Below, one piece after another: positions 12,164 through 58,450 of a stretch of 64,000 nt of DNA. Below the pieces are notes generated by a model. The model was not told where the DNA came from, ran no database searches, and saw nothing but the letters and a program-made list of their open reading frames with translations. The stretch is from Candidatus Cloacimonadota bacterium. Lineage in GTDB: Bacteria > Cloacimonadota > Cloacimonadia > Cloacimonadales > Cloacimonadaceae. A program made the translations under genes and the position numbers. How positions within the stretch are numbered: the stretch's first letter is position 1; every line of letters starts with the position of its first letter. The stretch is from contig JAAYEF010000031.1 of the NCBI GenBank assembly GCA_012728875.1, positions 62,001 through 126,000 on the forward strand. Direction: 5' to 3'.

Positions 12164-14074
12164 ATGAACGCTAATCAGGGCGAAAACGCTTACACGATCA
12201 TAGAAACGCTGCACCGCTCGCAGCAATTCCGGGTCTATAAAGCGCGAAACTACTTCAGCGGGCGGATTGTGACGATCAAAACCAACGAGCGCAGCTTCCA
12301 GGGTACGCAAACTTTGGTGGAGCAGCTGCGCAACGAAGCGGAAACCGGACGGCGTCTGAAACATCCAAACATCAGGGAAACCATTGGCCTCTTTGAAGAT
12401 GGCGGCTCCGCCTACATGGTTTGCGAATATCTGGAAGGCGATCCGCTGGACCACATTTTGGCAATCCCGAAGGTGGACATCAGTTACAGCCAGGCTTTGA
12501 AATGGACCCTGCAGATCTTGGATGCGCTGCAGCACGCACACCAACGCCTGATTCTGCATCTGAACCTGCACCCTTCAAAGATGATCATCACCACGGATTA
12601 TGAGCTGAAGATATTCGGCTTTGGCAGGCCACCCCACGCCTGGAAAAATGCGAAACCCGGCGGACAGGAATACCATCCGGTCATCTTCACCGCGCCGGAG
12701 ATCTTTTTGGAGCAAAACCCAGATCAGCGCTCGGACATCTATTCCGTTGGCGTGCTGGCACATCTGCTTTTCACCGGCAGACTGCCCTGGGAAGTGGACA
12801 AGGCTCAGCCGCCTTCCTCGCAAAAGCAGAATCTCTTGACCCAACCTCCCGTATCGCAAAGCGCTGGTGGAAAACAGATTCCCGCCTGGCTGCGGAGCAT
12901 TTTGGGCAAGGCTTTGCAGCTTGATCCCCAAAAGCGCTTCAGCTCTGCGGAGGATATGCGTGCAGCCATTGTTGGGCAAAAAGAAGTGGTGTTTGACGCG
13001 GCTCCTGGAGAGCCGGCGAGGTATCAAGCTCCTGAGACCCAGAAGTTTACCCCTGACGAAGCCGTCACCCAGCCGGGCCTGCCCAAATCGAAAGTGGTTC
13101 CCACGACCCAGATTCCGGTTCAGCGGGAATCCGGGTTCAAAAAGCCGCTCAAACCAAGAAAGGAAAAGAGCCCCAAAAAGCCCGTGGAGCTTTCCCCGGA
13201 GATGTTGAAACTGCGGAAGACCTTCAAGGTGATGGCGGTGATTTCCGCCCTGATCTTGGTTTATATTCTGTTCAAATATGTGATTTTCAACGAAAAGTCG
13301 TTTTTCAAGGGCTTCATCCAAAATGCGGTGAGAAAGGAGGCTCAAGCCGTTGCAAACCGAGCCATTGAGATGATACCGGTGAACGGCGGCACTGCGCTTC
13401 TGGGGAACGTTGTCCAGGGCGCTGGTGCGGACGAATATCCAGTTCTGCAGCTTGAGCTGAAGCCGTTTATGATTGGCGTCACGGAAGTTACGCGTGAAGA
13501 GTGGGCGATGGTCTTCCCCAGCACCGACTACCGGGAATCGGGAAAAGATCTGCCCATCACGGGGATCACCTTCGATGATGTCCTGATCTGGTGCAACAAA
13601 AAAAGCCTGCTTGACGGGCTGGACCCCTGCTATGAGATCTATGACAACGGGGTGAATTGCGACTTCAGCGCCAACGGCTATCGCCTGCCCACTGAGGCGG
13701 AATGGGAATTTGCGGCAAAAGCGGGCAAAAAGAGCAACTATTTTGTGTTCAGCGGGGCAAACTCAGCCGAACCGGTTGCTTGGTTCTTTGGCAACAGCGG
13801 TGGGAAACTGCAGGAGGTCAAGCAAAAGCAGCCCAATCAGTTTGGGATTCATGACCTCAGCGGAAATGCGGCGGAATGGGTCTGGAACTGGTATGCGCCC
13901 TACGGCTCAAGCGAGGAATCGGCCTTTGCCGGGCCGGATTATGGCTCGGACAAGGTGGTGCGCGGAGGCTCCTTCAAAAGCCAGCCCGAAGAGTTGAGAG
14001 TAACCCGGCGCGACTATGCAAAACCCTATGCACAAGAGGCAAACATCGGCTTCCGCGTGGTTCGCAAAAGATAG
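12164..14074 (+). CDS. Pseudokinase fused to a sulfatase-modifying-factor-like domain
   Basis: 636 residues. Residues 10-270 have the protein-kinase fold: Lys39 of the VAIK motif (IVTIKT), a possible alpha-C Glu near 60, the hinge MVCEYLEGDPLDHIL, and an APE-like motif (FTAPEIF). Yet the glycine loop is missing (LHRSQQFRVYKA), the HRD motif is HLN (132-134) and DFG is GFG (152-154), so both catalytic aspartates are gone. A basic/proline linker leads to a membrane helix (356-375) and a formylglycine-generating-enzyme-like domain (403-634; GYRLPTEAEWEFAAKAG, GNAAEWVWNWY, VVRGGSF). The active-site Cys normally found after RGGSW is absent (GGSFKSQPEELRVTRR). Thus a cytoplasmic pseudokinase and an outside ligand-type domain, perhaps a signalling or scaffold protein. 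Confidence 0.85.
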   Translation: MNANQGENAYTIIETLHRSQQFRVYKARNYFSGRIVTIKTNERSFQGTQTLVEQLRNEAETGRRLKHPNIRETIGLFEDGGSAYMVCEYLEGDPLDHILAIPKVDISYSQALKWTLQILDALQHAHQRLILHLNLHPSKMIITTDYELKIFGFGRPPHAWKNAKPGGQEYHPVIFTAPEIFLEQNPDQRSDIYSVGVLAHLLFTGRLPWEVDKAQPPSSQKQNLLTQPPVSQSAGGKQIPAWLRSILGKALQLDPQKRFSSAEDMRAAIVGQKEVVFDAAPGEPARYQAPETQKFTPDEAVTQPGLPKSKVVPTTQIPVQRESGFKKPLKPRKEKSPKKPVELSPEMLKLRKTFKVMAVISALILVYILFKYVIFNEKSFFKGFIQNAVRKEAQAVANRAIEMIPVNGGTALLGNVVQGAGADEYPVLQLELKPFMIGVTEVTREEWAMVFPSTDYRESGKDLPITGITFDDVLIWCNKKSLLDGLDPCYEIYDNGVNCDFSANGYRLPTEAEWEFAAKAGKKSNYFVFSGANSAEPVAWFFGNSGGKLQEVKQKQPNQFGIHDLSGNAAEWVWNWYAPYGSSEESAFAGPDYGSDKVVRGGSFKSQPEELRVTRRDYAKPYAQEANIGFRVVRKR

Positions 14075-20136: not shown

Positions 20137-22164
20137 ATGAATATCGAACTAAGTAGGGAAGCAGCAGAGAAGCTGTTAAAACAAAAATTCGGTTTGGACA
20201 ATTTCTATGACGATCAATGGGAAGCCATTTCCCGGATTTTGAAGGGCGAAAGACTGCTGCTGATTCAAAGAACAGGCTACGGAAAGTCCCTGTGTTTTCA
20301 ATTTCCTGCAATTTTGTTTGAGGGCTTGACCGTGGTTTTCTCCCCCCTCATCGCATTGATGCGAGACCAAGTTAACAAACTGCAATCATTGGGCATACCC
20401 GCTAAAAGCATACACAGCAATCAGGGTGAAGAAGAGAATCTCAAAGCGATTGAGGAAGCCAAACAAGGGTTGCTGAAAATCCTTTATATTGCGCCGGAGA
20501 GACAAGATAACATGATTTGGCTGGAAGAGGTGCGGCAGATGAAGCTTTCCATGGTGGTGGTGGACGAAGCGCACTGCATTTCAATGTGGGGACATGATTT
20601 TCGACCCGCATACAGGAGGATCATCAATCTCGTAAACCTGTTGGCTGACAGTTTGCCGGTGCTTGCAACCACTGCAACTGCCACAACAAGGGTTGAGCAG
20701 GATGTTGCTTCCCAGATAGCTGGAGATCTGAAAGTGATCCGTGGAAATATGCTCAGGGAGAATCTGCGCTTATATGTCGTCAAAGTCAGGTCGGAAAAGC
20801 AAAAACTGATTTGGCTCGCCCGGAATATCAAGCAACTGCCAGGAACTGGTATCATATACACAGGAACGGTGGTTGAAACCGAAATGATAAGCAGGTGGTT
20901 TGATTTTCTTAACGTTTCTTCCAGATTCTACAATGGCAAGCTGGACAAAGATACCAGAACTGAGGTTGAACAAGGCCTGCTCAACAACTCATGGAAGTGC
21001 GTGGTTTCAACAAACGCGCTGGGCATGGGCATCGATAAACCGGATCTCAGATTCATCATTCACACTCAGTTTCCTCCGTCTCCGGTTCACTATTATCAGG
21101 AAATAGGTCGTGCCGGCAGAGATGGCTTGCCCACTGATATCATTTTATTATACAATCCCAAAGATAAAGACCTGCCGGAAGCATTTATTGAAGGAGCCAA
21201 AGCTTCCCCGGAAAAATACCGCAGACTGATAGGTGAAATAAAATATAAATCGCTTGGTGAGAGAGAGTTAATTAAAATTACAAATTTCAGACAAAAAGAA
21301 ATCGATAATATCTGTGCAGACCTGATCGACCAAGGTGTCATCAGGGAAGTGCACTCCTACAAATATAGGAAATATGAGTTCATTCCAAATTCCAAGCCGT
21401 TTGACCCCGGTTTTTACGATCGGATACGTTCGGCAAAAACTGAGGAACTGGATGCGATGATAGAATATGCAAAAACCAGGCAGTCGCGCATGTCTTTTCT
21501 GTGTGAGCATCTGGGAGACCCAACGCAAAGAGAATTCACCAATTGTGACAATACCGGTTTGAAAAAACGGCGGTACAAGCCTAGTTGGGAATTGTCAAAA
21601 AAGTTGAAAAGATTTCAGTTCAGCTACTTTCCTGAACTCAAGGTACAATCTGCGGAATCAAATCTCGTCGATGGAGTTGCCGGGTCATATTATGGCGTCT
21701 CACATGTCGGTTCAGCAATTCACAGATGCAAGTATGCAAATGGTGGGGATTTCCCGGATTTTCTCATCTCTCTCATGGTCAAGGCTTTCAATTCCAAATT
21801 CCGGAAAAATATGTTTGACCTCATTCTATACGTTCCTCCCACCATATCCGGGGACTTAGTTCGCAACTTGGCGCTCAAAGTGTCAAAGATTTTAAAAATC
21901 CCCATTTCTCATGATCTGATAAAAACCCGTCACACGCAAAAGCAAAAGATATTTGAAAACACTCTGCTCAAATCAGAAAATGTTTCCGGTGCATTTTCAG
22001 TTAAGGATCCACAATCAATCGAAGGGAAAAGGATTTTGTTGATCGACGATATCTTTGACAGTGGATGCACCATACAGGAAATTGGCAAATATCTGTCTCG
22101 TCAAGGGGCATCAAAAATTGCGCCGCTTGTGTTGGCTAAAACAGTGGGCGGAGATAAGTTATGA
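20137..22164 (+). CDS. RecQ-type helicase fused to a ComF-type phosphoribosyltransferase
   Basis: 675 residues. The helicase has the RecQ motif 0 region (FYDDQWEAI), Walker A QRTGYGKSLCFQ (Lys50), DEAH (143-146) followed by the RecQ aromatic loop CISMWGHDFRPAY, TTATATTRV, GMGIDKPDLRFIIH and QEIGRAGRDG. The RecQ zinc site is decayed: Cys456 and Cys470 remain but the other two positions are Phe467 and Thr473, and there is no HRDC domain. The C-terminal 150-200 residues form a type I phosphoribosyltransferase with the PRPP loop ILLIDDIFDSGCT (633-645), as in ComFC. Codons are rich in A/T compared with neighbours. The ribosome site is weak. A DprA-like gene follows after 30 bases. A DNA-processing or defence role is inferred. 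Confidence 0.9.
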   Translation: MNIELSREAAEKLLKQKFGLDNFYDDQWEAISRILKGERLLLIQRTGYGKSLCFQFPAILFEGLTVVFSPLIALMRDQVNKLQSLGIPAKSIHSNQGEEENLKAIEEAKQGLLKILYIAPERQDNMIWLEEVRQMKLSMVVVDEAHCISMWGHDFRPAYRRIINLVNLLADSLPVLATTATATTRVEQDVASQIAGDLKVIRGNMLRENLRLYVVKVRSEKQKLIWLARNIKQLPGTGIIYTGTVVETEMISRWFDFLNVSSRFYNGKLDKDTRTEVEQGLLNNSWKCVVSTNALGMGIDKPDLRFIIHTQFPPSPVHYYQEIGRAGRDGLPTDIILLYNPKDKDLPEAFIEGAKASPEKYRRLIGEIKYKSLGERELIKITNFRQKEIDNICADLIDQGVIREVHSYKYRKYEFIPNSKPFDPGFYDRIRSAKTEELDAMIEYAKTRQSRMSFLCEHLGDPTQREFTNCDNTGLKKRRYKPSWELSKKLKRFQFSYFPELKVQSAESNLVDGVAGSYYGVSHVGSAIHRCKYANGGDFPDFLISLMVKAFNSKFRKNMFDLILYVPPTISGDLVRNLALKVSKILKIPISHDLIKTRHTQKQKIFENTLLKSENVSGAFSVKDPQSIEGKRILLIDDIFDSGCTIQEIGKYLSRQGASKIAPLVLAKTVGGDKL

Positions 22165-22194
22165 TACAGACGAAGGTAAAAAAGGATTGAGAAA

Positions 22195-23316
22195 ATGCTA
22201 CACGATGCCGCATATTTCATCACAATTTCTCACTTAAACCAGTGGACCAATGCTCAAATTAACGACCTGATCACTCAAATATACCATGAAAACAAATCAG
22301 ATCTTCGAGAGTTTTTCAGCCTCAGCGAAGATGATTGGAAAAACCTCTATAACATCGATGAAAAGAAATTGGCTTCCCTGCGCGAAGCAAAGGAGCAAAT
22401 CGTAAACAATTCACTCCTGGCTGAAACCCTTATGAAACAAGGTTTTGAGCTGATTCCACTTTTATCGCCAGATTATTCTGAAACCTTGAAAGACAACCTG
22501 AAAAGCAACACACCACCGTTGCTATACGTCAAGGGCAATAAACAGCTTCTATTGGATGATTCCGTTGCCATCGTCGGTTCCAGGGATGCCAGCGCTAATG
22601 GCTTGAAGTTCACCGAAAACGTGGCAAAAAAAGCCACTGAAAACTATCAAGCCATCGTGAGCGGTTTTGCCAAGGGCATCGACAGGGCGGCTCTGGATTT
22701 CACCTTGAAATACATTGGACACAGCATCATTGTCCTTCCTCAGGGCGTTTTGACATTTGCTTCGGGTTACAAGACCTATTATAGTCAAATAGTTGAAGGA
22801 GATGTGCTTGTGCTGAGCACCTTCCATCCCCAAGCACCCTGGAACGTGAAACTGGCGATGGCGAGAAACCCGATTATCTATGGCTTGGCAAAGGAAATAT
22901 ACGTTGCAGATTCGGCAGAAAAGGGAGGGACTTGGAATGGTGTGAAAGATGGTCTTCGCAAGGGGCGTACAATTTTTGTGCGAAGACCTGAAGAACATGA
23001 AATCAATGCAAACAATCTGTTGATCGATATGGGCGCTCAGGCAGTTGATATATTTGGAAATCCAGAAAGCCTGCAAGTGCCGGAAAGCTTGGCTGAACCT
23101 CTGCCCAACAAGGAAGAACTCAAGGATAAGATTCTGAAACTGCTGAAAAATTCTGCTCTCACAGCTAAGGACGTATGCGAGCAGCTTGGGTCGGAGATGA
23201 CTCCACAGATGATGGGCAAAATGCTCAGCAATATGAAGGACGTGGAGAAAAAGAAAACTGGAAAAGTTGTAAAATACAGCGTTAAACAGCGACACGAATT
23301 ATTTGATATGTCATGA
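22195..23316 (+). CDS. Divergent DprA/Smf-family DNA-processing protein
   Basis: 373 residues with AAGGA upstream of the ATG. A helical N-terminal region (1-110) precedes the DprA Rossmann domain: VAIVGSRDAS (124-133), VSGFAKGIDRAA (155-166), then SIIVLPQG, and a degenerate form of the FPxRNRIIAGL motif (LAMARNPIIYGLAK). The last 60 residues look like a winged helix (TAKDVCEQLGSEMTPQMMGK). True DprA loads RecA on incoming single strands during transformation; this copy is distant from the consensus. It is AT-rich like its upstream RecQ-phosphoribosyltransferase partner, with which it forms a two-gene operon. No terminator was seen after it. Confidence 0.88.
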   Translation: MLHDAAYFITISHLNQWTNAQINDLITQIYHENKSDLREFFSLSEDDWKNLYNIDEKKLASLREAKEQIVNNSLLAETLMKQGFELIPLLSPDYSETLKDNLKSNTPPLLYVKGNKQLLLDDSVAIVGSRDASANGLKFTENVAKKATENYQAIVSGFAKGIDRAALDFTLKYIGHSIIVLPQGVLTFASGYKTYYSQIVEGDVLVLSTFHPQAPWNVKLAMARNPIIYGLAKEIYVADSAEKGGTWNGVKDGLRKGRTIFVRRPEEHEINANNLLIDMGAQAVDIFGNPESLQVPESLAEPLPNKEELKDKILKLLKNSALTAKDVCEQLGSEMTPQMMGKMLSNMKDVEKKKTGKVVKYSVKQRHELFDMS

Positions 23317-51700: not shown

Positions 51701-54171
51701 AAAATGCGGAATTCAGGAACTACCGTCTGCCCGGACCGATGGGCCCAAACCCGATGATCGCACCGTTTTGGGATGACCTCACCACCCACAACGGCGGTGC
51801 GATTTACACTTGGTTCGATCGCAACAACCATGCTTTCATCATACAATGGAACAACATGAAAAACGGCTGCAACGGCAGCAGCCCGGAAACCTTCCAGGTC
51901 ATTTTGTATGATCAATCCATGTATCCAACTTCCATGGGCGACGGCCCCATCAAAATCCAATATCACACCTTCAACAACGTTGATGCCACCACGGACACCA
52001 AAAAACACGGAAACTATTGCACCATCGGGATCGAAGACCACAGCGGCGAGATCGGCTTGGAATACAGCTATTCAAACACCTGGCCCACAGCGGCTTCACC
52101 CCTTGGAAACCAGCGTGCCATCTATATCACAAACATTCCCATCTACCACTATGAGCCTCATGTGATCCTGGGCGAAACCTATATCAACGACCAAAATGGC
52201 AACGGCGTTTGCGAGCCCGGCGAGACTGTGGAACTGGGCATACAGCTCAGAAACATTGGAAACCAAGCCGCTGAAAATATCACCGCCACCCTGAGCACCA
52301 CAAACAGTTACGTGACCATCAGCACCCCCAGTGCGGAATACTTTCCCCTGCACGGTGACGCTGCCGGAGTGAACCGCAATCCCTTTGTGTTTGAGGTGAG
52401 CCCGGATTGTCCCAACGGCACGGTGGTGAACTTTGTGCTCAATGTCGAATCCGGTGAAACAGTCTGGGAAAGGAATTTCAGCCTGCGGGTGGAAGCTTCC
52501 GTGCTGACCTATGAATCATTTTTGATCAACGATGCGGAAGCCGAATACAACGGAGTGATCGATCTTTTGGAGACCGTGAAGCTGGTGGTGAACATTAAAA
52601 ACCGGGCGGATGTGCAGTCGCGCGATGTGCAGGCCACCCTTTCCACTTCCAGCGCGGATGTGATTATCGCTGACCCGATCATCATCCTGCCCATCATCGA
52701 GGCCAACGCTGTGATGCAGTTTGTGTTCGAACTCCAGTTTGTGGGCGTGGGTTCCCAAGGCGGCTACATTCCCTTCCAGTTCAATGTTTCCCTCTCAAAC
52801 GGAAACCCGCTGAATTCGAACCTGATGATTCCATATAATATGCCCAACATTTTCAACGATTTTGAAACCAACTCCGGCGGATTCATCTCTGAAAATGGCT
52901 GGACTTGGGGCACACCAACCCAGGTGTCGCCCTATTCCGGAACCAAGCTTTGGGCCACCGGCCTCACCGGAAACTATCCCGACCTGGTGAACTATCTCCT
53001 TGTGACTCCGGCCTTTACGCTTTCTCAGGGAAGCGTGCTCAGCCTGCAGCATCGCTATGGCTTTGAAAACAATTACGACGGCGGAAACGTGAGCATCTCC
53101 ACCAACGACGGAGCCAGTTGGACTGTGATCTCTCCTCTGGGAGGATATACCCACAACAACCTTTCCGGGCTTGGCGGCGAACCGGGTTTCTCCGGCTCCA
53201 TCCCGAACTGGCAGTCTCTGCAGTTCAATTTGAGCCAATATGGCGGACAGACGGTACGTTTCCGGTTCCGCATGGGCTCGGATAGTTCGACGACCGGCAT
53301 CGGCTGGTTCCTCGACAACTTTGAGCTGAGCGGGGTGGACCAAAAAACCGGATATATGCACGGCACAGTGATTCCCATTTCCGATACACCCGCCAGCGAA
53401 GCCCTGGTGAAGGCAAACATCGGCTATTCGACTCATCCGGATGAAGATGGAAACTACCGTCTCTATCTGCCCTTTGGAACCTTCAATACCACAGTGTCTT
53501 TGTTGCACCATCAATCCTCGAGTTTGAACAACGTCACCATCAGCCCTTCCAATCCGATCCGCCAGGCAGATTTTACTCTGATCAGCCTGCCCGCTCCGGA
53601 AAATGCAGCGTTTACGGTTGACAACGTCACCGGAACCGTGGTTCTGTTTTGGGATGAGCCAAACGATCCTGTGCTGCCGGTGATGAGCTACCGCGTTTAT
53701 AAAAAGTTCGATACCGGAAGCTTTGAATTGATCCAAACAACCACGGGATTCAGCCACACCGACCAGATATCATTGTACGGAAATTACGCCTACTACGTCT
53801 GCGCAGTGTATATGAACAACGAAGGCAGCCCGTCCAGAACCATGGCGTTTGAATATCCTTATGTTTCAAATGATGACGATGGCGCGCCCGGACTGGTGAC
53901 CCGACTGCAGAGCAACTATCCCAACCCCTTCAATCCCAGCACCACCATCGCCTTTGAGCTTGCCCAGGGTGGAGCCACCAAACTTGACATTTACAACGTC
54001 AAGGGTCAACTGGTGAAAACCCTGGCCAGAGGAGACTTCAAGCCCGGCAGCCATCGCGCAGTTTGGGATGGCAAAGATGAAAGCGGACGCGAAGTGTCTT
54101 CCGGCGTCTATTTCTATCGCTTGGAAGCTCCGGGATATGTCTCCACGCGCAAGATGCTGATGCTAAAATAG
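48712..54171 (+). CDS. C25 (gingipain-like) family exported protein with T9SS sorting domain
   Basis: 1,819 residues from the ATG at 48712 (AAGGTGG upstream). A signal peptide (MKKHILLLFAALCVAVVFAG) is followed by a gingipain-type propeptide (about 30-220), the C25 catalytic region (about 235-590; PPRYLIIHGNSSD, DYVVLLGDTVGSYPIP), several beta-sandwich domains (CARDB/invasin-like, a MAM-like region near LQHRYGFENNYDGGN, a fibronectin III domain) and the Por sorting domain (SNYPNPFNPSTTIAFEL, GVYFYRLEAPGY, RKMLMLK). The likely nucleophile Cys464 (ITCGSNNF) is present, but the expected GHG histidine region reads SYRGY (Arg437), so activity is doubtful. It should be displayed or released by T9SS. 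Confidence 0.9.
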   Translation: MKKHILLLFAALCVAVVFAGVAEFEPTQASQAFKVTAKASNHTDIRFELPAWDIELVEAGGSSFQKIILPGAGNTLESGLPELPTLSMNLAIPRQGGVQLSVLGRQHSVVPEFMAYPVQQGLQEEYPKSFVINQDFYVAGVQYPSELVQHSDPMILRDFRIVNVVVNPFSWDPQTKTLQVNQQIDLRISYTDEPGVNEMEGELLSVSPSFEKIYEAMILNFDDYRYLMFADQPPRYLIIHGNSSDANFLTALNEFVLWKKQKGADVDLASTAPSEAGSSSSSIKTYIQTAYNNPATRPDYVVLLGDTVGSYPIPTFTVSGGEGDYPYTHLEGNDILGDCFIGRISVENLVQLQNLLSKIYLYERDINLNLAQWLNRMLLVGDWSPSGISTMYISKYIKERALYVNPNYTFTEIYNDSPSAADINSAINQGVGFYSYRGYIDFAPPAESALTNLYRMPHCVNITCGSNNFASSYASEMEQFVRYGTTAMPKGAITGIGMSTSSTHTGFNNVLHGGIFGGILQHGMRTMGEALLCGRLYMSSIYGVTAPSYTTSFTHWCNLIGDPTMEVFTGIPDRFEVETLQSIPLGLSLMDMHVANGSGEAVANASVTLSQGASIISRGYTDVEGNLILTLPQSMTVNPCVLTVSKHDFKPLQMSIQVDNSGTLVPGSIVIDDDNVGASSGNSDGLAQGGETLEILFGLTNTSTETISGLSGSVQTDNPWVSFVDSLVVYPNVQASQMAFNANPVVIQVASDAPHGSMLRLHVLLTDSQGNEYDISEFIPLHNAKMLYIGNLVTNGGNQVLDPGETAGFTVTVANTTPNGVSEVWGKLYSHNDLVSVTDNTAWYGDLLQNVQVTPAADMFELFGRPMLLPGMVIPMSLKLYNDAGFEQWLGFSLTVGQVSVNDPLGPDAYGYVIYDDQDYAYEECPVYDWIGISPSEGGSGTLLTISDGWVNGNEGDQVAANSLAVVDLPFPFQFYGLLYDQITVCSNGFIAMGVTENAEFRNYRLPGPMGPNPMIAPFWDDLTTHNGGAIYTWFDRNNHAFIIQWNNMKNGCNGSSPETFQVILYDQSMYPTSMGDGPIKIQYHTFNNVDATTDTKKHGNYCTIGIEDHSGEIGLEYSYSNTWPTAASPLGNQRAIYITNIPIYHYEPHVILGETYINDQNGNGVCEPGETVELGIQLRNIGNQAAENITATLSTTNSYVTISTPSAEYFPLHGDAAGVNRNPFVFEVSPDCPNGTVVNFVLNVESGETVWERNFSLRVEASVLTYESFLINDAEAEYNGVIDLLETVKLVVNIKNRADVQSRDVQATLSTSSADVIIADPIIILPIIEANAVMQFVFELQFVGVGSQGGYIPFQFNVSLSNGNPLNSNLMIPYNMPNIFNDFETNSGGFISENGWTWGTPTQVSPYSGTKLWATGLTGNYPDLVNYLLVTPAFTLSQGSVLSLQHRYGFENNYDGGNVSISTNDGASWTVISPLGGYTHNNLSGLGGEPGFSGSIPNWQSLQFNLSQYGGQTVRFRFRMGSDSSTTGIGWFLDNFELSGVDQKTGYMHGTVIPISDTPASEALVKANIGYSTHPDEDGNYRLYLPFGTFNTTVSLLHHQSSSLNNVTISPSNPIRQADFTLISLPAPENAAFTVDNVTGTVVLFWDEPNDPVLPVMSYRVYKKFDTGSFELIQTTTGFSHTDQISLYGNYAYYVCAVYMNNEGSPSRTMAFEYPYVSNDDDGAPGLVTRLQSNYPNPFNPSTTIAFELAQGGATKLDIYNVKGQLVKTLARGDFKPGSHRAVWDGKDESGREVSSGVYFYRLEAPGYVSTRKMLMLK

Positions 54172-54225
54172 TTATGAAAAAAGCCCTTTGGCTTTGATGC
54201 CAACGGAGCTTTCGAAATCAATCAG

Positions 54226-54252
54226 ACCCCGGACTCTGTGCCGGGGTTTTTT
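54226..54252 (+). terminator. Rho-independent terminator after the C25 family gene
   Basis: ACCCCGG (54226-54232) pairs with CCGGGGT (54241-54247) around an 8-base loop, followed by a T run to 54252; 55 bases beyond the stop. The rest of the gap to the next gene is AT-rich, with nothing else recognised. Confidence 0.85.
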
Positions 54253-54395
54253 CATGCCGGAGCTTTGAGCAGGGAAATCTACTGCGAAATTCAGGCTCAA
54301 ATGGAGATCCATATTTAAGTCATAATCCGGGAATGTAATTCTATCAAGCTTGCATTATATCCTGAGAAACCTATTATATGGATGAGGTAAGAAAA

Positions 54396-55085
54396 ATGAA
54401 AAAGCTTATCATATTCGTCCTGCCCTTGCTGCTGCTTTCAGCTTGTTCCATCATGGATATCAGTCTGCAGGAAACCGCCATGCCGCTTCCTGGGGGAACG
54501 GTGGATGTTGCCGTGTATGAGGGTCTTGGCATCGAGCTTTCCACCATGCTGAGGGAAGGCGATGCTGATGAAGGAATCTTTATGCCAGGCTGGTTCGTCA
54601 GCGGCTTCAAGCTTGGCGTTCCTCTTGCTTACAACCTCGATTTAAACAGCCGTATCTATCTTTCGAGCAATACGATGGGCACTAAAATCGGCCCCAAAAT
54701 TGTTATCAGTGAAAGAAACGAACACTATCTTGCTGCCATTCCTGCATTTACAGCAATGATAAGTCGCAATGTGGAGCAGGATTATGATAAATATGCGTCT
54801 TTGGGAGCCGAGCTTACTCTGGTGTCCACTTGGGCAGGGAACCCTGTGGTGTTACCTTCCGTGAGTGCGCGTTTCAGCTACGATCGCCTTTTTGAGGAAG
54901 ACCGCTGGCGGGATCCGCCACTTCGGGCCTATGATTTGATGCATGGCGGACTGGGCACCAGCCTGAGAATTTCACTGGGTTCCCTGTATCTGCATCCCGA
55001 ACTTGGCGTTGAACTTGTGCCCATGCTGGATGGCGCGATCAAGCTTCTTCCCAACGGTTCTTTGGGGCTCGGTTTGGAATTATGA
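54396..55085 (+). CDS. Lipoprotein of unknown function, tandem paralogue 1
   Basis: 229 residues from the ATG at 54396, with GAGGTAAG 8 bases upstream. Lipoprotein signal MKKLIIFVLPLLLLSAC, Cys17 lipidated. The mature part begins IMDISLQETAMPLPGGTVDV and contains beta-rich repeats (SRIYLSSNTMGTKIGPKIVI) and a Gly/Leu-rich end (LPNGSLGLGLEL), like a small outer-membrane-associated barrel or sandwich. It is clearly homologous to the next gene (same lipobox, ETA-x-PLP start, KIGPK motif and HYLAAIP). No known family recognised. Confidence 0.82.
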   Translation: MKKLIIFVLPLLLLSACSIMDISLQETAMPLPGGTVDVAVYEGLGIELSTMLREGDADEGIFMPGWFVSGFKLGVPLAYNLDLNSRIYLSSNTMGTKIGPKIVISERNEHYLAAIPAFTAMISRNVEQDYDKYASLGAELTLVSTWAGNPVVLPSVSARFSYDRLFEEDRWRDPPLRAYDLMHGGLGTSLRISLGSLYLHPELGVELVPMLDGAIKLLPNGSLGLGLEL

Positions 55086-55505
55086 TTGTTTGCTTGGATC
55101 GGGCAGGGATTTGGGTTTGATTTGATCTCAATTCATTGGCAGGAGGGCAGTCAGGCATCGGCAGCTGTTTTTCCCTGCCCAGGGGCGGAGTTGCGGATTA
55201 CAGCGATGGAGCCTTGATTTCAGCTTGCTTAAATTAGGCAGGATTGTGTTCAAATTCGGTAAACATGACAGGACCCAAACCTCAAGGGGTGATTGTTATG
55301 AAAATTGTTATGAAAATTGTTCTTGACATAAAAATGAAAACTTAAGATCATGCATTCGGTCGTTTGATCTGACATAGTGTGTACACAACGAGGGCAGTCA
55401 AGCGCCCTCTGCCAGCCTGAAAAACTAAGAATCGAATTTTTACATAAACGTTTGGACCCCAATTTTTTATCCCTGATAAAAGAATATATGGATGAGGTAA
55501 GAAAC
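55086..55505. other. Gap between the two tandem lipoprotein genes
   Basis: About 420 AT-rich bases. They include a 12-bp tandem repeat (ATTGTTATGAAA twice plus half a copy, 55292-55321) followed by TTGACA at 55323-55328, and, just before the next start, a 20-base leader (TATATGGATGAGGTAAGAAA) shared with the first lipoprotein gene. No terminator was found after the first gene. Confidence 0.45.
55292..55321. repeat. 12-bp tandem repeat upstream of lipoprotein paralogue 2
   Basis: ATTGTTATGAAA is present twice in tandem (55292-55303, 55304-55315), followed by ATTGTT, and then TTGACA at 55323. The array lies about 190 bases before the second lipoprotein's start. Confidence 0.7.
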
Positions 55506-56192
55506 ATGAAAATGCTTAGCGTTTGTATCCTTCCCCTGCTGCTGCTTTCAGCTTGTGCAGTCTTGGATGTCACCATTCAGGAAACCGCAGTTCCGCTTCC
55601 CGAGGGGAAAGTGGAAGTTGTCGCTTACACAGGTTCGGGAATAGAGCTTTACGATTTGAACCCGGAAAACCCCCCGGAAGGTAATGTGGATACAGGTTGG
55701 TATCTTGCGGGCATAAAATTTGGGATTCCCCTCTGCGAAAGAATGGATCTAAATAGCCGCATCTATTCCACAGGCAGCATCACTGGTGTCAAGATCGGGC
55801 CAAAGCTTGTGTTCGGCGGAAAAAAAGGGCACTACCTTGCCGCAATTCCCGCAGTTTCAGGGTTGGTATCTCACCACAGGGGTTCAAGTAGCAGGCGCTA
55901 CTCGTCCCTGGGTGGCGATTTGACTTTGGCCTCGTCCTGGGCCAAAAACCCCAGGGTCGTTCCCACTCTGAGCGCCCACGTTAGCTACGATCACATTTTT
56001 GAGGATATTTCCAGCCCCATACCCTCCAAAACAAATTATGATCTGTTGCGTACCGGATTTGCCACAAACCTCATGCTTTCATACAAATCTATTTTCCTGC
56101 GTCCCGAGCTCGGCATCGAATATATGCCCCTGCGGGATGACGGATTAAAGTTTTTCCCCACCTTTTCTTTGGGTCTTGGTTTCCAACAATAG
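55506..56192 (+). CDS. Lipoprotein of unknown function, tandem paralogue 2
   Basis: 228 residues from the ATG at 55506 with the same GAGGTAAG ribosome site as paralogue 1. Signal MKMLSVCILPLLLLSAC with lipidated Cys17. The mature part begins VLDVTIQETAVPLPEGKVEV, shares KIGPKLV, HYLAAIPA and the Gly/Leu-rich tail (FSLGLGF), and keeps the same spacing of aromatic residues. The two proteins are similar throughout, suggesting a tandem duplication followed by divergence. A terminator follows. Confidence 0.85.
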   Translation: MKMLSVCILPLLLLSACAVLDVTIQETAVPLPEGKVEVVAYTGSGIELYDLNPENPPEGNVDTGWYLAGIKFGIPLCERMDLNSRIYSTGSITGVKIGPKLVFGGKKGHYLAAIPAVSGLVSHHRGSSSRRYSSLGGDLTLASSWAKNPRVVPTLSAHVSYDHIFEDISSPIPSKTNYDLLRTGFATNLMLSYKSIFLRPELGIEYMPLRDDGLKFFPTFSLGLGFQQ

Positions 56193-56206
56193 ATTGCTTT
56201 ACTCGG

Positions 56207-56230
56207 CCAAGCTTGGCTTGGGCTTTTTTT
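56207..56230 (+). terminator. Terminator after lipoprotein paralogue 2
   Basis: CCAAGC (56207-56212) pairs with GCTTGG (56216-56221) around a three-base loop and a T run of seven follows (56224-56230). It overlaps a 12-base perfect palindrome, GCCAAGCTTGGC. Confidence 0.75.
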
Positions 56231-56297
56231 ATCGGTTTATAGGTAACTAGTTCCTGTCAGCCAGATCGTTGTCCGGAATCGCGGTTCCGCGCATGAT

Positions 56298-56483
56298 CTA
56301 TGATATGGACGCCGAACCGCTGATCCCATAATAACGTGCAGCTTGTGCAACCGTCATTGTTCCCATTTCAATTTCTTCCACTACCATAGGTTTAAATTCT
56401 TCGCTATAGCGAACTTGCGGACGTGTCTTCTTCAAAGTTTCTCTCTTTAATCTGGGTTTTCGGTCAACCTGGGTCAGGATGGG
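56298..56483 (-). pseudogene. Transposase N-terminal helix-turn-helix remnant
   Basis: On the minus strand the frame bounded by stops (end 56298, upstream stop at 56484-56486) reads about 61 codons, including ETLKKTRPQVRYSEEFK and VVEEIEMGTMTVAQAARYY, then GISGS and a TAG. This is the typical helix-turn-helix start of IS3-type transposase OrfA proteins (E-E-F-K ... V-x-E-I ... T-x-x-x-A-A-R-x-Y-G-I). It stops where OrfA would continue and no OrfB is present, so it is a decayed insertion fragment. Confidence 0.65.
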
Positions 56484-56513
56484 TCAACCTTGTCTCACGG
56501 CGTCAATCACTTC

Positions 56514-56584
56514 TTAATCAAGCCTTAATCAAGTCTTAATAATTAACGCTTGATTAAGGCTTGATTACCACTTGATTAAGGCTT
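56514..56584. repeat. 11-bp repeat array forming a 20-bp near-perfect palindrome
   Basis: TTAATCAAGCCTTAATCAAG (56514-56533) is the reverse complement, 19 of 20 bases, of 56549-56568, with a 15-base centre. Each arm consists of 11-base direct repeats (TTAATCAAGCC type on the left, CTTGATTAAGG type on the right), with a further right-hand copy at 56571-56581. The region is AT-rich and lies between the transposase remnant and the next gene. It could be a protein-binding cluster or a recombination scar. Confidence 0.8.
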
Positions 56585-56782
56585 TGGCTCAAGAGTGGGA
56601 ACGGCTTGAAATTGTGAGAGATAGAGCAATTATTGGTAATTTTGCCAAGGTTGTCGCTCCTCACAAAAAAACGGGATTTGGTCTTTTTCAAGCTCTTTTA
56701 GGAGCTGTGGTAACGATTTTGCTTGACATTTTGGAAAAAGGAGAATCTGTGGTAAAAAAAAGATTTTTACGGTGAGCTGCGC

Positions 56783-58450
56783 ATGATCTCGATTTTTATA
56801 GACTACAAGCTGGCAAGGTTTCAGCACGAGATAAAATATGCTTTCAGCTTCATATTCCAGACCCTGGGATACGGTTTCTGCTTCATTTCAGACACCGGGC
56901 AGCTGAAAGACAACGATATTCTCATCATCTACACCTATTCCGAACCCACGGTGGAAGAGCTGAAGGGGATTGCGCGCCATTTCATCACAATTTTCATACA
57001 AAGTGAACCGGACCTTTTCGACCCGAGCACCCAGGATCCGGAAAAGCTTCGCAAGAGCTTTAAAACCATTAAGTTACTTTCCAAAACCCCGGTGCTTTGT
57101 GCCCGCAATTTCTCCTACCCGGCAGAAAACTATTCCGAAAGCGAGGTGCATGCCGGCAAGATCAATTTTGACCTGGTGGGCAACATCTTTTTCCATTTGG
57201 CTGGTTTGGAGCCGCAGATTGACCCGACGCGCGATGCGGAAGGCTGCTACCCGGAATCTGCCGGCGTTTTTTATGAGCATCGCGACACTCCTTTTGTGGA
57301 TAATCTGCTTTGGCTGATCGACAGCATGATCAAGGAACACAGCCGCGCCAAGGGCATCCGTCTGGCGCAAAAACAGTATTGGCCGCAGGCTCAGGAAGGG
57401 GCAGCGCTGCTTTCCCACAGTGTGGATTCTTTGCAAAAATGGAACTATGCCAATTTTTTCCTTTCCATTGGCAGCGATCTGGCCATGCTTTTTTCCCTGA
57501 ACTTGCGTCAGTATTTTCATAGCATTGGCAGCAAAATCCGATATATGCTCACGAATGTGGAGTTTTATTGGAATTTTGAGGAATATCGGCAGTTGGAGCA
57601 GGACGCCGGCTTTCGCAGCACCTTTTACATCGCTCCGGAAAAGAACGAATATATAAACTACAGTCTGGACGAAACCGATCTGCAGGACGAAATTCGCCAG
57701 CTTGGCAGGGCAGGACACGAGGTGGGCCTGCTGCTTTCTCCGGACAAAGCCACACGTGACAGCTTTGTATCACGCAAGCAGATCATGCTGCATCAACTGC
57801 GCAAGGACCAGATTGGGATCCGCCAGCTTGACTTTAAGGTGAACGACACCCTGCGCGACCTGCACAACAGGATGGGTCCCTCCTACAGCCAAAGCACCTC
57901 ACGCAAGGATGAGCCCGGCTTCATCAGCGGGGTCAGTGTTCCCTACCAACCTTGGATTGGCGGCTTGAAAAGCGACTGGTGGGAGCTTCCCACCACCTAT
58001 CGCAATTCGCATCTCCGCGTGGGACGCTATAAAACCCTGCAACTGGAACAGGCCAAACAGATCTTGAAAAAAAACCTGCAAACTGCTCTGCGCGCCCGAG
58101 GAGTTTTCAGCCTGGAACTCGACATGGCCTCCTATGCGGACATCCCCTACGTGAAAAAACTTTATACCTATGCACTTGCGCTCTTGAAAGCAGGACGGAT
58201 TTGGGTGCCCACAGCTTCCGAGCTTGCAGCCTGGTGGGACAAACGCACCCGGGTCACCATCGAGGAAAGCGAACACGAGATCAGTGTCTATTTTCCCGAT
58301 GAGATGGAGCATTTCGCGCTTCAGATCCTGAATGAGGATAAGATCCGCGAGGTGGACGGACTGCCCGCCCGGGTGGAGGGGAACATGGTCTATTTCAGCG
58401 ATGTCCCCGCCGATGCGATTGCAGTGATCAGGCTGAATCGGGAACCGTGA
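56783..58450 (+). CDS. Polysaccharide-deacetylase-like protein, probably without catalytic metal site
   Basis: 555 residues. The N-terminal 200 residues resemble the extra domain found before some NodB-type deacetylases. The deacetylase region has LSHSVDSLQKW (canonical T-H-D-V-D-x-L-x-x-W), AGFRSTFYIAPE and GHEVGLLLSP, but the first Asp of HDVD is Ser213 and the usual final His of GHEIGLH is Leu317, so the metal and base residues are incomplete. No signal peptide. It begins the glycan operon and overlaps the GT4 gene by GTGA. It may be a non-enzymatic or altered member. Confidence 0.8.
   Translation: MISIFIDYKLARFQHEIKYAFSFIFQTLGYGFCFISDTGQLKDNDILIIYTYSEPTVEELKGIARHFITIFIQSEPDLFDPSTQDPEKLRKSFKTIKLLSKTPVLCARNFSYPAENYSESEVHAGKINFDLVGNIFFHLAGLEPQIDPTRDAEGCYPESAGVFYEHRDTPFVDNLLWLIDSMIKEHSRAKGIRLAQKQYWPQAQEGAALLSHSVDSLQKWNYANFFLSIGSDLAMLFSLNLRQYFHSIGSKIRYMLTNVEFYWNFEEYRQLEQDAGFRSTFYIAPEKNEYINYSLDETDLQDEIRQLGRAGHEVGLLLSPDKATRDSFVSRKQIMLHQLRKDQIGIRQLDFKVNDTLRDLHNRMGPSYSQSTSRKDEPGFISGVSVPYQPWIGGLKSDWWELPTTYRNSHLRVGRYKTLQLEQAKQILKKNLQTALRARGVFSLELDMASYADIPYVKKLYTYALALLKAGRIWVPTASELAAWWDKRTRVTIEESEHEISVYFPDEMEHFALQILNEDKIREVDGLPARVEGNMVYFSDVPADAIAVIRLNREP

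Follow-up and report, generated by a model that had tools for sequence, protein, structure and literature searches.

Two published systems share the architecture in which a RecQ-type helicase is fused to a phosphoribosyltransferase (PRTase) and followed by a DprA-like protein: syrTA/PsyrTA, described by Sberro et al. in 2013 according to the accounts given in PMC9122126 and PMC8790059, and RqlHI, described in 2015 in ExPEC E. coli by Russell and Mulvey (PMC4670107). In E. coli, RqlH alone led to SOS induction and filamentation; its toxicity required the PRTase, the D663A substitution in this domain restored the titers of a helicase mutant, and the effect was modulated by the helicase (PMC4670107). 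RqlI countered RqlH and rescued growth, and it co-precipitated with RqlH only when the PRTase part was present (PMC4670107). The related ShosTA system (PMC9122126; structures 8zva and 9vzo) also pairs a PRTase toxin with a DprA-like antitoxin, and ShosT is described as having both PRTase and pyrophosphatase activity and as perturbing purine metabolism (Pu et al. 2025, cited in PMC12593503). A pair of DprA and PRTase proteins gave protection against T7 and lambda (PMC9122126), and one native E. coli PsyrTA conferred no detectable protection against the phages tested under the conditions used (PMC12409345). Here, we analyzed a gene pair of this architecture in a 64,000-nucleotide stretch of Cloacimonadota DNA (referred to as the window), and we consider it, with a probability of roughly 85%, to be a PsyrTA (RqlHI) toxin-antitoxin module.

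The gene pair in the window

Both genes lie on the forward strand. The first one (psyrT/rqlH, 20137..22164), identified with the PADLOC PsyrT profile and Pfam, encodes a fusion of a RecQ-type helicase and a PRTase, the putative toxin, of 675 amino acids, whereas the second (psyrA/rqlI, 22195..23316), identified with the PADLOC PsyrA profile and a fold search, encodes a DprA-like putative antitoxin of 373 amino acids. The open reading frames are intact, co-oriented and separated by 30 bases (22165..22194), a spacer that measures 29-30 bases at the loci of the closest relatives, and they form a genuine operon. Scanning of the 19.6-24.0 kb region for promoters, terminators and repeats revealed nothing clearly above chance. 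The pair is AT-rich (GC 0.44, GC3 0.48-0.49) in comparison with the other window genes checked (GC3 0.57-0.72). A psyrA-like gene was found directly 3' of psyrT, on the same strand, at 23 of the 25 loci inspected, among them G014, whose gene product resembles PsyrA at the N-terminus only; the exceptions were G052, where it is located 514 bases 3' of psyrT, and an archaeal locus without such a gene, while a Nonomuraea locus yielded no usable open reading frame. Pairwise identities of PsyrT and PsyrA covaried (Spearman 0.92, over pairs that are not independent of one another), pointing to parallel divergence of both genes.

These data agree with the sequence-only reading of this DNA in that it had described a fusion of a RecQ-type helicase with a ComFC-type PRTase (confirmed by Pfam domains and motifs at the positions given above and below), a DprA-like gene 30 bases further on (confirmed by the open reading frames and the Pfam DNA_processg_A match) and an AT-rich pair (confirmed by GC3). 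It had also proposed that the module was undescribed, which does not hold, since the pair is matched by the PADLOC PsyrT and PsyrA profiles and corresponds to the published RqlHI, syrTA/PsyrTA and related ShosTA systems.

Domain make-up of the two proteins

The PADLOC PsyrT profile (PDLC03928) matched residues 6-673 of the fusion protein with 824 bits, covering positions 4-688 of 689. Pfam DEAD, Helicase_C and Pribosyltran were each detected above the gathering score, and the same search found neither RQC nor HRDC. The RecQ helicase core (residues about 25-330; 20209..21126, forward strand) was matched by DEAD, Helicase_C and, above its cut-off, by TIGR00614 (321.6 bits). It contains the Walker A motif TGYGKS (20272..20289, forward strand), of which T46, G47, G49, K50 and S51 were invariant in our alignment of homologs (A1), and a DEAH box (20563..20574, forward strand), of which D143, E144, A145 and H146 were all invariant in A1. 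The RecQ aromatic loop WGHDFRPAYR is also present and is kept in relatives. The PRTase domain (residues 579-667; 21871..22137, forward strand; Pribosyltran 35.2 bits, cut-off 26.3) includes the PRPP-binding loop LLIDDIFDSGCT (22036..22071, forward strand), in which D637, D638, S642, G643 and T645 were invariant in A1. When compared using hhalign, this domain matched the RqlH PRTase with E=4.5e-29 and the genome's own ComF, entered as a single sequence, with E=1.4e-14. The recQ equivalog model TIGR01389 scored 356.9 bits against a cut-off of 640.2 and matched residues 11-359 only. An AlphaFold2 model of the fusion protein had a mean pLDDT of 51 and was left out of the analysis.

Since the helicase core is about as close to canonical RecQ as to RqlH, we considered whether the fusion had arisen independently. 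This is unlikely, as the middle and PRTase regions are homologous to RqlH from end to end: residues 346-675, C-terminal to the helicase, aligned with the RqlH clade over 319 columns (E=2.8e-38), but with the C-termini of canonical RecQ proteins over only 48 columns, zinc hook included. The helicase tree, which lacks an outgroup, cannot decide between a single and a repeated fusion, and a one-clade test on it was invalid because the row taken as RecQ (L160) was an RqlH-like actinobacterial protein. Judged from its sequence, the fusion protein is thus homologous to RqlH and does not merely resemble it.

The PADLOC PsyrA profile (PDLC03927) matched residues 26-328 of the partner protein with 249.8 bits. 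The latter contains a DprA-type Rossmann domain (residues 80-284; 22432..23046, forward strand; DNA_processg_A 139.9 bits, above the gathering score), followed by a predicted winged-helix-like C-terminal region (residues about 306-363; 23110..23283, forward strand), as judged from how helices and strands succeed one another in the AlphaFold2 model, where pLDDT is mostly 76-87; a C-terminal HTH has been reported for RqlI, too (PMC4670107). The dprA equivalog model TIGR00732 scored 107.6, below its cut-off of 191.15. A fold search of the PDB with the model (mean pLDDT 66) gave DprA (3maj) and ShosA (8zva) as the top matches.

Taken together, the window pair shares with PsyrTA/syrTA the helicase-PRTase fusion, the DprA-like gene directly 3' of it and a full-length profile match. 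It differs in that its clade is only about 31-33% identical to proteobacterial and cyanobacterial copies, its DprA-like protein is shorter and its zinc hook is mostly gone. With RqlHI it has its architecture in common, as well as the order of the genes and the conserved catalytic motifs, and an E. coli plasmid copy (L050) aligned across 99% of the window protein; however, the plasmid copy has the four zinc cysteines that are mostly gone here, and the toxicity and binding experiments concern E. coli RqlHI only. Sequence and predicted fold relate PsyrA to ShosA, but ShosT has no helicase domain, while the window PRTase is fused to one; accordingly, the PADLOC ShosA and ShosT profiles matched the pair more weakly than PsyrA and PsyrT, with ShosT giving 24.6 bits at the PRTase end only. 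The features of PsyrTA/RqlHI found at this locus were a RecQ-like helicase with a C-terminal PRTase and without RQC or HRDC, a DprA-like gene immediately 3', intact Walker A and DEAH motifs together with intact acidic residues of the PRPP loop (K50, D143, E144, D637, D638) and an accessory, mobile distribution. The tetracysteine zinc hook, another typical feature, is absent from the window protein.

Its remnant lies at 21466..21555 (forward strand), where an alignment of 25 PsyrT homologs, a four-cysteine sister group and a tree indicated that C456 and C470 are kept. In the window clade canonical cysteines 1, 2 and 4 are gone and cysteine 3 is retained as C470, whereas C456 is specific to the clade and lies off the canonical RecQ/RqlH positions. 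Hence, the earlier statement that two of four zinc cysteines were lost was correct in that two cysteines remain, though only one of them is canonical and three were in fact lost. The four-cysteine hook is present in the E. coli, Acinetobacter, Nostoc and several Cloacimonadota PsyrT copies. Four sister species (G076, G111, G114 and G085) have both the canonical hook and the clade-specific cysteine, and in the tree they stand beside the cysteine-poor lineage, which fits loss of the hook within the clade, with the caveat that a Bacteroidales copy was placed outside both groups. The S. meliloti PsyrT has separately lost all four hook cysteines, suggesting that the hook is not strictly defining for PsyrTA/RqlHI. 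The cysteine loss may have altered the helicase. It is doubtful, though conceivable, that the Cloacimonadota/Bacteroidales clade represents a mechanistically distinct PsyrTA subtype, in which an altered helicase would sense or release the PRTase toxin in a manner unlike RqlH. We regard the pair as a new, somewhat divergent PsyrTA member that is ordinary except for its partly dismantled zinc hook.

Distribution and genomic neighborhoods

Within the genus, full-length copies were found in three of 13 genomes, and the pair was absent from 10 of the 12 congeners, the nearest (G003) included. Full-length or nearly full-length copies occurred in 11 of 61 genomes and, across the phylum, in about 18 of 125, together with two fragments at contig edges. 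The nearest named copies, from Cloacimonadota MAGs, are 63% identical to the window protein, and two genomes of the window genome's family (G068 and G069) carry PsyrT proteins identical to those of these MAGs, which makes a Cloacimonadota bacterium the most likely source of the window. In the congener G007 the pair is flanked by hisS and a phosphomannomutase gene; in the window these two genes are adjacent (32637/32721, 83 bases apart), and the pair is found about 9 kb from them, upstream of the gene for an aromatic amino acid lyase. The G007 stretch from psyrA to the phosphomannomutase gene that is missing from the window (L042:10340-11050) contains a 109-aa open reading frame with no Pfam match and could be a mobile element that has decayed.

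The neighbors of the pair in the window are a NADH-dehydrogenase/hydrogenase-like cluster, the aromatic amino acid lyase and a secreted protein that contains a FlgD-type Ig domain; the small subunit encoded by the cluster carries a thioredoxin-like 2Fe-2S domain. A defence island around the pair was rejected, as no recognized defence system was present among the scanned neighbors, which gave generic kinase matches only. One of the window proteins (12164-14074) is a fusion of a protein kinase with a formylglycine-generating-enzyme-like (FGE-sulfatase) domain, and its PADLOC PD-T4-6 matches probably reflect just the generic kinase domain. A second AT-rich stretch (54000-57000, GC 0.44-0.49) encodes lipoprotein-like open reading frames.

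On an E. coli plasmid, a relative of the pair lies within a type I restriction-modification operon, and in Acinetobacter one lies within a BREX operon; others adjoin BREX genes in G014 or occur close to a type III restriction fragment in UBA5456. A pattern-based scan of IMG/VR viral contigs found no relative. At the G014 locus (L046:7577-12166; same family), PsyrT lies beside the BREX genes pglX, pglZ and brxL. Its 466-aa partner matches PsyrA in the first 210 residues only and carries a DUF488 domain at its C-terminal end; the next gene encodes a DUF488 protein that stands alone (PADLOC candidates PDC-M45B and PDC-M45C). The locus appears to be a PsyrTA variant whose DprA domain has been replaced. 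In G004 (L044:1223-5873), PsyrT is located directly 3' of a DEAD/MZB helicase bearing an HNH domain.

Alternative explanations and putative mode of action

The sequence-only reading had suggested that the pair rebuilds the ComFA/ComFC/DprA competence set for DNA uptake with a different helicase. The PRTase and DprA domains are indeed homologous to those of ComFC and DprA, and the RqlHI authors noted the same resemblance to competence proteins, discussing and doubting such a role (PMC4670107). However, a separate canonical dprA (TIGR00732, 249.4 bits, above the cut-off that the window protein does not reach), comF and comEC are all present elsewhere in the genome, so the pair is not the competence set; furthermore, eight of the 10 congeners without the pair show another kind of DprA-like match, and relatives sit inside BREX and restriction-modification operons. 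We therefore hold this explanation to be very improbable. The same reading had named two outcomes that would speak against a non-housekeeping module, a syntenic position conserved in all related genomes and the lack of a second dprA. Both are excluded, because the insertion site differs in G007 and the canonical dprA is present. Its view of the pair as an accessory module of the defence type looks right, considering the patchy distribution and the BREX and restriction-modification contexts of relatives, while its idea of a nucleotide signal is unsupported, as the relatives studied in the literature point to a toxic PRTase and a disturbance of purine metabolism.

It had further called for a search for a separate canonical recQ. 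None was found in the genome, whose assembly is estimated to be 90% complete, and the only match to the RecQ-family model above the cut-off was the window fusion gene itself. This raises the question of whether the fusion has taken over the housekeeping role of RecQ in repair, with the DprA-like protein loading or protecting single-stranded DNA, the more so as the M. smegmatis RqlH is reported to be an active helicase (as cited in PMC4670107) and RqlH occurs alone in most Gram-positive genomes (PMC4670107). Yet the ten congeners without the pair also lack a comparably strong RecQ-like match (best E 1.2e-42, compared with about 1e-80 to 1e-100 for canonical RecQs of relatives), so RecQ seems to be dispensable in the genus. 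Since the pair is also patchily distributed over differing insertion sites and has a conserved PRTase active site that a helicase-only role would not need, we find a repair function unlikely. Finally, the loss of three zinc-hook cysteines and the stop codon interrupting the G042 copy might indicate an inactive, decaying relic of a defence system, but both window genes are intact with conserved ATPase and PRPP motifs, and the cysteine loss is common to the whole clade, most members of which are intact. Decay is thus hardly credible as an explanation.

The PsyrTA assignment is based on the homology and domain make-up of the two proteins, their intact catalytic motifs, the arrangement of the operon and the parallel divergence of both genes, as well as on the patchy distribution, differing insertion sites and defence neighborhoods of relatives. 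Against it we counted the housekeeping neighbors, the unprotective E. coli PsyrTA, the negative IMG/VR result and the loss of zinc cysteines. The best explanation is a defence module of the toxin-antitoxin type that moves horizontally, its PRTase toxin being restrained by a DprA-like protein. The pair has all the motifs needed for RqlHI-like action, and by analogy with published relatives its toxicity, neutralization and binding would proceed as follows. The DprA-like partner would bind the PRTase domain directly and keep the fusion protein inactive, as in the tested E. coli systems. Infection or DNA stress, the presumed trigger, might disturb this complex, and the freed PRTase, with the helicase assisting and gating it, would then act on nucleotide or DNA metabolism through a reaction that we can only surmise. 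The resulting DNA damage, filamentation and growth arrest could stop phage spread, if the pair has anti-phage activity.

With these findings, the range of a known defence family of the toxin-antitoxin type comes to include an uncultured candidate phylum. The mobility of the module is evident from the comparison of occupied and empty sites and from its different locations within one genus, and the different degrees of zinc-hook loss in a single clade provide natural variants for probing the role of the helicase in PsyrTA.
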